From: Candidatus Methylacidiphilales bacterium
GTDB taxonomy: Bacteria; Verrucomicrobiota; Verrucomicrobiia; Methylacidiphilales; CAZTYG01
Length of the DNA: 64,000 nt
Reading direction: 5' to 3'
Assembly (NCBI GenBank): GCA_033875315.1
Contig: JANRJG010000038.1
Coordinates: 186,001 to 250,000, forward strand
Shown: positions 33,115 through 55,935 of the stretch, one piece after another
How the letters are laid out: each line of letters starts with the position of its first letter
Numbering within the stretch: position 1 is the first letter of the stretch
Program-made: the position numbers and the translations under genes
Notes under the pieces: model-generated
The model's database searches: none
Told to the model about the DNA's origin: nothing
The model's input: only the letters and a program-made list of their open reading frames with translations

Positions 33115-33170
33115 AGGACGACCAGCCTACCATGGACTTCACCTCGAAGCGACTAGAAGGGGGGAAATTT

Positions 33171-33257
33171 TCCTTCGTGCGCGTGCTTCGGGGGTCAGGC
33201 AGGGAGGGGTTTACCCCGATCGAGTTGGGGTGGTGGATTTTGGCTTCGCTTAACTCG
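33171..33257. repeat. Direct repeat L flanking the GIY-YIG gene
   Basis: 87 bp starting TCCTTCGTGCGCGTGCTTCG and containing GGCAGGGAGGGG, then GGTGGTGG and TGGCTTCGCTT. It is about three-quarters identical by eye to 33561-33651. It includes the stop codon of the GIY-YIG gene. The GCAGGGAGGG core looks like the 3' end of the nearby tRNA-Ser. Confidence 0.7.
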
Positions 33258-33495
33258 TAAAATGTCGTTTTCGAAAGGCAAAGCCCGAGCCGGTTTTGAG
33301 GTAGCGCTCAAAATCGAGTGCCAGGGTTTTTGAGCGAAAGGCACCATACCATTCGATTACCCAGGGCATGTAAGGTTTGCTGCTGCGACAAAGGCCTCGG
33401 TTGTGTTCTGCAAGACGGCTTTTCAAGTCAGCAGAACTTCCAATGTATATCTGCTTAGGATCTGACTCCGATCTCAAGATGTAAACATAGTGCAT
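33250..33495 (-). CDS. GIY-YIG endonuclease domain protein (UPF0213-like)
   Basis: An 81-residue single-domain protein of the GIY-YIG nuclease superfamily. The first strands read HYVYILRSESDPKQIYIGSS, giving a degenerate VYI...IYIG motif, followed by DLKSRLAEHNRG with the conserved Arg and the usual Glu candidate in ALDFERYLKTGSG. ATG 33495 (MHYVYIL) is chosen; the longer frame to 33588 runs into repeat. Such small proteins have largely unknown roles. Flanking direct repeats and the neighbouring tRNA-Ser fragments suggest a mobile history. Confidence 0.88.
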   Translation of the reverse strand: MHYVYILRSESDPKQIYIGSSADLKSRLAEHNRGLCRSSKPYMPWVIEWYGAFRSKTLALDFERYLKTGSGFAFRKRHFTS

Positions 33496-33560
33496 ACACG
33501 CCCCCTTCGATTCAAGAGGTGGGCTAGCCACCCGAAGCCTTGGCGAAGGGTGGCGGATCC

Positions 33561-33651
33561 TCCTTCGTCCGAGCACTTCGGAGGACATGCAGGGAGGGAT
33601 TTACCACGCTTTGCCGTGGTGGTGGGTGATGGCTTCGCTTTCTTTGACTCG
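33561..33651. repeat. Direct repeat R flanking the GIY-YIG gene
   Basis: 91-bp partner of the repeat at 33171-33257, starting TCCTTCGTCCGAGCACTTCG, with ATGCAGGGAGGGATTTACC, GGTGGTGGG and TGGCTTCGCTT at the same places. Confidence 0.7.
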
Positions 33652-33693
33652 TCCTGGCGGACGCACCGCTGAACCAAGGTTCGACTCAATGTT

Positions 33694-33742
33694 ATACGCT
33701 CGCTTCGCGAGGGCCGCGCCTTGAGCGCGGACAGGGAGGGAT
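33694..33742. repeat. 49-bp direct repeat, copy 1 (tRNA-Ser 3' end plus flank)
   Basis: Begins ATACGCTCGCTTCGCGAGGG and ends GGACAGGGAGGGAT. It is identical over 49 bp to 33841-33889. The last 15 bp equal the 3' end of tRNA-Ser, and the remainder its downstream flank. Confidence 0.93.
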
Positions 33743-33840
33743 GGGCCACCTAGCCGGTTCTGTTTGCACCCTCCGGGCTGTTTGATGGACGGCACCGAAC
33801 CCTTCGGTGCTGGAGCTCGAACTTCGTTCGAATCGTTTAT

Positions 33841-33889
33841 ATACGCTCGCTTCGCGAGGGCCGCGCCTTGAGCGCGGACAGGGAGGGAT
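33841..33889. repeat. 49-bp direct repeat, copy 2 (overlaps tRNA-Ser)
   Basis: Identical to 33694-33742, 147 bp away. Here the final 15 bp are the true 3' end of the intact tRNA-Ser gene. The arrangement resembles the duplicated attachment site left by tRNA-directed insertion. Confidence 0.93.
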
Positions 33890-33959
33890 TCGAACCCTCG
33901 TTACCTTGCGGTAAACACGCTTTCCAAGCGTGCGCATTCGACCACTCTGCCACCTGTCC
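33875..33959 (-). tRNA. tRNA-Ser (GGA)
   Basis: 85-nt type II tRNA. Acceptor arms GGACAGG and CCTGTCC pair perfectly, discriminator G73 is as expected for serine, the anticodon loop is TTGGAAA between CACGC and GCGTG, and the T-loop is GTTCGAATC. The long variable arm TTACCGCAAGGTAA is typical for serine. CCA is not encoded. Confidence 0.96.
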
Positions 33960-55091: not shown

Positions 55092-55676
55092 ATGCCACAA
55101 TCCAGGACAACGCGGCACTTGGTGCTGGTCGGCATGATGGGGTCGGGCAAGAGCAGCGTGGGCCGCGCCCTGGCCGCCCGCAGCGGTGCCCCCTACATCG
55201 ACACCGACGCCGCCATCGAAGGGCGTATGCGGAAGACCGTTTCCGCCCTCTTCGCCGAATGGGGCGAGGCGCGCTTCCGTGAATTCGAACGCGAGGTCTT
55301 GGCCGGGGTTCTGGCCGACGAAAGACCGGCCATCCTTTCCACAGGCGGGGGTGTGGTGGTCCTGCCGGAGAACCGGGCCGCATTGCGTGCGTCCGGATAC
55401 ATCGTCTACCTGCGTGCCTCACCCGAAGTGCTCTACCAACGCTTGAAGCGGGACACCTCGCGGCCGCTCTTGCAAAAGCCAGACCCCCTGCAGGTTTTGC
55501 GCGACCTGGAGACAGCACGGAAGGCCTACTATGAAGAAGCCGACACCATCGTCGACGTGTCCACCATGCGTCCGCGGGTGGTGGCCGAAGAAATCTGGAA
55601 ACGGATTCCGGAGTCGGTGCGGTGCGGCTTGGAAAGCAGGCTGGAGCGTGAACCCGGGCGGACAAGTCCGCCATAG
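55092..55676 (+). CDS. aroK: Shikimate kinase
   Basis: A 194-residue kinase phosphorylating shikimate. P-loop GMMGSGKSS at 14-22 (Lys20), shikimate-binding Asp in [14 protein letters not shown] and the GGGVV motif (LSTGGGVVV). The last codons, GRTSPP and the stop, are read from a 41-bp repeat (55656-55696), so the C-terminal tail is probably altered from the ancestral one. Start ATG 55092 gives a normal family N-terminus. Confidence 0.93.
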
Positions 55677-55696
55677 TGGGCGTCCGCTCACGAAGG
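55656..55696. repeat. 41-bp repeat, copy 1, covering the aroK stop
   Basis: Starts GGGCGGACAAGTCCGCC, itself partly palindromic, and continues TAGTGGGCGTCCGCTCACGA to AGG. Copy 2, with three substitutions, is at 55826-55866 and touches the tRNA-Cys 3' end. Confidence 0.85.
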
Positions 55697-55825
55697 TTCG
55701 TGGTGCGGTCTCCGTTTCCTTTCAGAAGGGAACCTACCAAACCAAGTCGCAGATCACTCCTCCCCTGCGCGGCTGGACCCACCTCCCGCCTACGCCAAGG
55801 CTACGGCGGGCGCCTTCGGTATTCA

Positions 55826-55866
55826 GGGCGGACGTGTCCGCCGTAGTGGGCGTCCGCTCACGAAGG
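55826..55866. repeat. 41-bp repeat, copy 2, next to tRNA-Cys
   Basis: Partner of 55656-55696, 170 bp away. Its last bases (GAAGG) run into the 3' end of the tRNA-Cys gene. Confidence 0.85.
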
Positions 55867-55935
55867 CGGAGGGCGGAATCGAACCGCCGAATGGGGCTTT
55901 TGCAGAGCCCTGCCTTACCACTTGGCTACTCCGCC
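55864..55935 (-). tRNA. tRNA-Cys (GCA)
   Basis: 72 nt. Acceptor arms GGCGGAG and CTCCGCC pair perfectly, U73 is the cysteine identity base, the anticodon loop CTGCAAA has GCA, and the T-loop is GTTCGATTC. CCA is not encoded. Confidence 0.96.

Follow-up and report, generated by a model that had tools for sequence, protein, structure and literature searches.

The closest described systems to the locus analyzed here, both already known, are phage enzymes of the SegB type and tDNA islands driven by an integrase. SegB of phage T6, a member of the GIY-YIG enzymes, cleaves within tRNA genes and leads to tandem amplification by recombination; it prefers the motif RAWTSGAAC, which on the complementary strand reads as the T-loop sequence GTTCSAWTY (PMC13096335). 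Tyrosine-integrase tDNA islands use T-loop/acceptor and anticodon sub-sites, and the tRNA/tmRNA islands (Islander) possess a regenerated gene together with a displaced fragment (PMC4383910). Single features are also shared by UPF0213/Slx1-type proteins (YhbQ, YazA, BH0048), which have the same minimal GIY-YIG fold as the nuclease considered here, and by group I intron endonucleases (I-TevI type), which offer homing logic and GIY-YIG catalysis. The anticodon loop is a known group I intron site.

Here, we have analyzed a 64,000-nucleotide stretch of the genome of a Candidatus Methylacidiphilales bacterium (the window) and related loci in other genomes. As with the Seg homing endonucleases of T-even phages, a GIY-YIG gene lies beside tRNA genes; however, the elements described here are chromosomal, are not found in phage records, encode only the catalytic domain, contain and restore part of the tRNA, have a hairpin leader and also occur at tmRNA. 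They share target, regenerated gene and displaced fragment with the tRNA/tmRNA islands but lack an integrase, the units of the window being only 140-390 bp long and containing a GIY-YIG gene or none. No intron is present and the tRNA beside the gene is intact, unlike in the group I intron systems, and TIGR01453 gave only a weak match far below the cut-off.

Organization of the tRNA-Ser(GGA) locus

The initial annotation had described an intact tRNA-Ser(GGA) gene followed by a perfect duplicate of its 3′ end and flank and then by two decayed versions enclosing a GIY-YIG gene, and each of these features was recovered. The intact gene, regarded as the invaded one, is located at 33874-33959 on the minus strand (ARAGORN, Infernal), as are all features of the locus listed below, and its last 15 nt, the T-loop/acceptor 3′ end, occupy 33875-33889. 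The tRNA 3′ end from the T-loop and its flank (33840-33889) recur as an exact 50-bp copy at 33693-33742; a repeat search extended this match to 64 nt at 92%. Decayed T-loop-to-3′-end pieces open further copies at 33576-33602 and 33169-33212, which match each other over 48 nt at 81% and enclose a GIY-YIG ORF (33250-33588).

Three units can be delineated. Unit 1 (33743-33889, approximately 147 bp) has no GIY-YIG gene and is made up of the T-loop-to-end part of the tRNA, hairpins (CCGCGCTCAAGGCGCGG at 33861-33877 and CTCGCGAAGCGAG at 33846-33858) and a spacer reaching to the next T-loop copy. Unit 2 (33603-33742, approximately 140 bp), likewise without the gene, contains the exact copy at 33693-33742 and a terminal hairpin, CCACCACGGCAAAGCGTGGT, at 33603-33622. 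The nuclease gene is found in unit 3 (33213-33602, approximately 390 bp), which starts with the decayed 3′ end at 33576-33602, continues with leader hairpins at 33558-33585 and 33528-33553 and finishes with a terminal hairpin ending at 33213. Outermost lies the most decayed displaced tRNA-Ser 3′ end with a leader remnant (33169-33212). The observation of stacked repeats is correct, as each unit has its start inside the T-loop and stops immediately ahead of the following T-loop copy. Searches of the same genome with the leader sequence returned only this locus and one weak match, at another tRNA-Ser/GIY-YIG locus, which ruled out a general intergenic repeat family.

The other tRNA of the window, tRNA-Cys (55864-55935), is followed by a remnant without a GIY-YIG gene (55674-55866, minus strand), which has a leader hairpin, GCCCGCCGTAGCCTTGGCGTAGGCGGG (55785-55811), and a 23-bp repeat, CCTTCGTGAGCGGACGCCCACTA (55844-55866 and 55674-55696).

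Breakpoints and leader hairpins

Across genomes, the duplicated tRNA part begins at T-loop positions 57-61 in class T and at positions 43-47, just behind the anticodon arm, in class A. At the initiator tRNA, class-A ORFs terminate at a TAA codon within the anticodon loop of the duplicate (GGC TCA TAA), the remaining anticodon arm being replaced by a short palindrome. For example, the stop codon of the ORF at 1459-1752 of locus L080, and of its relatives, is the TAA of CTCATAA, the initiator anticodon loop. A mirrored order also exists, in which a tRNA 5′ fragment is followed by a palindrome, the GIY-YIG gene and a complete tRNA of the same type. This arrangement was seen at L313, L320, L324, L330 and L088, the last of which has additionally retained a tRNA end reaching as far as ...GGTTC. 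In five of six mirrored loci, the 5′ fragment stops within the anticodon loop (nt 34, 34, 35, 35 and 37), and in the sixth (L317) it stops at nt 21.

A displaced piece is detectable downstream in 14 of 79 loci of both classes, and in merely 5 of 43 class-T loci, even though the gene lies at the tRNA, which is a point against the reading proposed below. The island trait of a regenerated tDNA with a displaced fragment is met, although the fragment is undetectable in most class-T loci, probably owing to decay. Because tyrosine integrases also use T-loop and anticodon sub-sites (PMC4383910), anatomy alone cannot name the enzyme.

In class T, the leader contains a stem that starts from the first nucleotide after the encoded CCA and whose 3′ strand is followed by TG, able to pair with the CA of CCA; next comes a hairpin of the type CCCTCCGAAGC-loop-GCGAAGGAGGGC. 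The leader sequence varies among loci while the pairing is kept. A stem match of at least 7/8 was observed in 35 of 57 distinct leaders, versus 12.7 (maximum 22) with a 5′ strand borrowed from a different locus and 3.4 (maximum 10) upon shuffling. The P1 set showing kept pairing had been chosen for pairing, so we rely only on the borrowed-strand and shuffling control. Class-A units do not have this type of leader. Rfam searches of the locus and the leader detected tRNA only and no leader family, and a group I intron or a known RNA leader was rejected on this ground.

The GIY-YIG nuclease

Two starts are possible for the nuclease of unit 3. As the 112-aa version, from the ATG at 33588, begins within the tRNA-derived repeat, the internal ATG at 33495 is the better start, and the predicted product is most likely an 81-aa protein (33250-33495) comprising the catalytic domain only (PF01541, E 2.5e-13). 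The invariant residues Y5, Y17, R27, H31 and E63 are consistent with an active enzyme. An AlphaFold (AF2) model (pLDDT 94.8) represents a bare GIY-YIG domain of the Slx1/UPF0213 fold, its closest folds being Slx1 (Foldseek, 6sei, TM 0.70) and UPF0213 BH0048 (1zg2, E 0.023, TMq 0.53); Slx1, unlike this protein, has a zinc finger and the partner Slx4. The homing-endonuclease trait of a nuclease fold with catalytic residues is therefore met by the PF01541 and AF2/Foldseek results, whereas cleavage of an element-free allele is inferred only. The ORF is under purifying selection, with dN/dS values of 0.05-0.13 in class T and 0.11-0.33 in class A.

A tree of 86 GIY-YIG rows has few columns and many unresolved forks, and was used only for counting changes of RNA type. 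At least 42 changes are needed, compared to 55-65 with shuffled labels, which suggests, within the limits of such a weakly resolved tree, that the elements stay with a given RNA type for some time and change it frequently. A single clade holds enzymes located at Ala, Val, Pro and Met tRNAs and at tmRNA.

Distribution in the same genome

The GIY-YIG protein has seven matches in this genome, each of them directly downstream of a tRNA on the same strand, at five tRNAs: tRNA-Ser(GGA), tRNA-Gly(GCC), initiator tRNA-Met, tRNA-Met and tRNA-Ser(TGA). Two tandem copies are present at tRNA-Gly(GCC) and two different types at the initiator tRNA-Met. Given the 44 tRNA genes of this genome, a random gene start would fall within 500 bp downstream of one of them, on the same strand, with a chance of only approximately 0.4%. 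Units without a GIY-YIG gene but with a T-loop-to-end duplicate were also found behind other tRNAs that have no GIY-YIG gene, including L264 (17 nt at +131), L260 (15 nt at +128) and L244 (C23:21424-21497), where two such units are arranged in tandem with a period of approximately 142 bp, each starting at the T-loop and ending in a hairpin CCCCGCG..CGGGGATC. Phage_integrase has three matches in this genome, none of which is beside the GIY-YIG-bearing tRNAs, and hence the island trait of an integrase gene in the element is not met.

Two further arrangements in this genome may be mentioned. At the initiator tRNA (L003/L006, C38:76.7-77.6 kb), a class-T unit lies inside class-A sequence, the order being class-A gene, tRNA 3′ half, class-T gene and class-A C-terminal fragment. 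In addition, a near-identical palindromic MITE-like repeat, GGGAGGGCGAGGCTCC..GCCGAGCCG, is inserted in second, decayed GIY-YIG copies at two different tRNAs (L002, approximately 2040-2160, and L007, approximately 1825-2000).

Linkage to tRNA and tmRNA in other genomes

A protein search yielded 80 distinct non-flavobacterial relatives, each with more than 600 bp of upstream sequence, from Verrucomicrobiota, Planctomycetota, Patescibacteria, Pseudomonadota and other phyla; the genomes examined are mostly MAGs. A tRNA-only search left many relatives unexplained, most of which were resolved once a tmRNA search was added. In total, 71 of the 80 lie behind a tRNA or a tmRNA in the same orientation (62 and 9, respectively), and none has a tRNA or tmRNA next to it on the opposite strand. 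The other nine include L018, which has a tRNA-Ser 3′ remnant, and L088, which lies inside a duplicated tRNA-Asn. The hosts comprise 17 tRNA isotypes and tmRNA, and the Seg-like trait of linkage to many tRNA isotypes is thus met. Among relatives in Flavobacteriia, 10 of 12 follow tmRNA. In these loci (L054-L065), which occur in cultured genera such as Winogradskyella and Salinimicrobium, tmRNA is followed by a hairpin leader of the same type and the GIY-YIG gene.

An unrelated protein in the relatives served as a control and had a tRNA in the corresponding flank at none of 15 loci. Even among 40 weaker family members from 27 genomes, including distant ones, 23 have a tRNA or tmRNA upstream, and another five are flanked by a tRNA 5′ fragment on the upstream side and the complete tRNA on the downstream side. 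In contrast, UPF0213-type 'LYTGIT' members in those same genomes revealed no tRNA/tmRNA linkage, implying that the linkage is a property of this GIY-YIG subfamily, which does not meet the UPF0213/YhbQ trait of a tRNA-independent location.

No match was detected by tblastn at E 1e-3 in 50,697 phage records, and accordingly no sequence kinship with phage GIY-YIG homing endonucleases was found there; PHROG gave no match either. The GIY-YIG ORF had no match in 72,556 plasmid records, and one match to the protein was obtained in viral contigs. Phage or plasmid cargo was rejected on the basis of these searches.

Empty, single and double occupancy at orthologous tRNAs

Presence/absence polymorphism at orthologous sites was met at the initiator tRNA and tRNA-Pro loci of one genus. 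At the initiator tRNA, GIY-YIG is absent from G022, G043 and G060, present once in G040, G034 and G046, and present as two tandem copies in G011 and G026 (near-identical and identical units, respectively), and G059 has a class-T gene instead. Empty G022 and occupied G034 can be aligned on both flanks, and the right flank resumes only after the second 3′ half. The tail of the G026 element, ATTCCTTTTGG, differs from the host flank, ACCAAACTTGC, which indicates that the element carried its own 3′ half. G043, G022, G061 and G011 share an identical 50-bp sequence upstream of tRNA-Pro(TGG); G043 has a GIY-YIG unit and the other three a different unit without the gene. The tRNA-Ala(GGC) loci of a third genus include empty and occupied sites as well as sites with the leader alone. 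Stacks of two unrelated GIY-YIG types occur at one tmRNA (L198) and one initiator tRNA (L003/L006). For the tRNA-Ser of the window itself, no empty-site comparison was available in relatives of the same order, in which no tRNA lies next to the neighbouring gene.

At the initiator tRNA of genus g4 (L084, L086, L085, L124, L127), inverted initiator 5′ halves with their own promoter lie downstream and the flanks are exchanged from one species to another, apparently as a result of local inversions driven by the tRNA copies.

The proposal of repeated insertions at a tRNA gene, made from the window alone, is therefore supported in two respects: homologues are mostly located at tRNA or tmRNA rather than far away, and gene-free orthologous loci have matching flanks.

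Proposed mechanism and alternative explanations

We consider it probable that the locus is an insertion stack of a minimal homing-type mobile element that targets tRNA and tmRNA genes, restores the gene and leaves a scar. The position of the units, their loop boundaries, the restored tRNA, the displaced piece, the stacking, the empty, single and double occupancy and the purifying selection on the ORF are all observed. Each unit would begin with a tRNA end that serves as the replacement, followed by a hairpin leader, in most cases a single GIY-YIG gene of approximately 80 aa (or none) and a terminal hairpin. The nuclease may cut the resident tRNA or tmRNA gene, at the T-loop in class T or in the anticodon region in class A, after which the break would be repaired from an element-bearing copy, with the tRNA's own sequence providing homology on both sides. 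In such a cycle, the tRNA would stay intact because the incoming unit supplies the missing part; the old part would be pushed downstream and remain as a scar, and a new event at the same loop would shift the older unit outward, producing the strata seen in the window. Units without the gene might have moved in trans or lost it. Cutting by the nuclease, the cut site, the repair route and the origin of these units are inferred in the absence of biochemistry, with SegB as a strong precedent for the proposed nuclease role.

An integrase island in the strict sense was rejected, as no integrase is nearby. The main rival is a tyrosine recombinase acting in trans, which would insert the units as tDNA mini-islands with GIY-YIG as a passenger, because tDNA islands share the sub-sites and also restore the gene; a restored tRNA plus displaced fragment, at both tRNA and tmRNA and with T-loop and anticodon sub-sites, is indeed the classic island signature (PMC4383910). 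We nevertheless regard it as unlikely, since the few integrase matches of the genome lie elsewhere, GIY-YIG is the sole gene in the small units examined across many phyla, and viral contigs gave a single match and the phage and plasmid records none. The initial annotation had left it undecided whether the nuclease is cargo or agent; neither is proven, but an agent is favoured over a passenger given that in many phyla the units have no other gene, that the nuclease is under purifying selection and that no integrase is found nearby.

The nuclease could also be a long-term resident that only duplicates locally in tandem, as SegB does in phage T6, without jumping between loci. The tandem units of G026 and G011 would fit such segmental amplification, which is however difficult to reconcile with related enzymes at different RNAs within one clade, unrelated GIY-YIG types stacked at the same tmRNA or initiator tRNA, and empty orthologous sites; moreover, the tRNAs are repeated only in part, so that tRNA dosage does not rise, and we give this explanation little credence. 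Hardly plausible, in our opinion, is a housekeeping role in which nuclease and leader act in 3′ trailer processing of tRNA/tmRNA or in tDNA repair and have for this reason stayed next to their substrate. Purifying selection and a leader stem that starts right after CCA and keeps its pairing would be expected of it, but the patchy occurrence among sister species at the same tRNA, the freedom of any tRNA to be a host, the decayed and stacked copies and the absence of the leader from class-A units are not.

Implications

In the open-access full-text literature (subscription papers and preprints not included), we found work on SegB and Islander and no account of chromosomal, GIY-YIG-only elements that restore tRNA or tmRNA, and there is a real chance that these elements deserve a kind of their own. 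It is conceivable, albeit rather doubtful at present, that a bare Slx1-like, structure-selective GIY-YIG nuclease reads the hairpin loops of tRNA genes by shape instead of via a sequence-reading domain and also moves hairpin elements without the gene in trans, in which case tRNA tails across bacteria would be insertion strata and the elements a new mobile-element class. An 80-aa domain without an obvious DNA-binding part that is yet tied to tRNA genes raises the question of specificity.

If the insertion-stack reading is true, the very common annotation 'GIY-YIG nuclease family protein' would gain a role, namely that of a selfish element specialized, outside phages and plasmids, on those loops of tRNA and tmRNA genes that are most conserved, and an origin would be found for many of the tRNA fragments and hairpin repeats scattered behind tRNAs. 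It would also link phage SegB biology to bacterial chromosomes and offer a mobile element in which the mending of the broken target gene can be put to the test.
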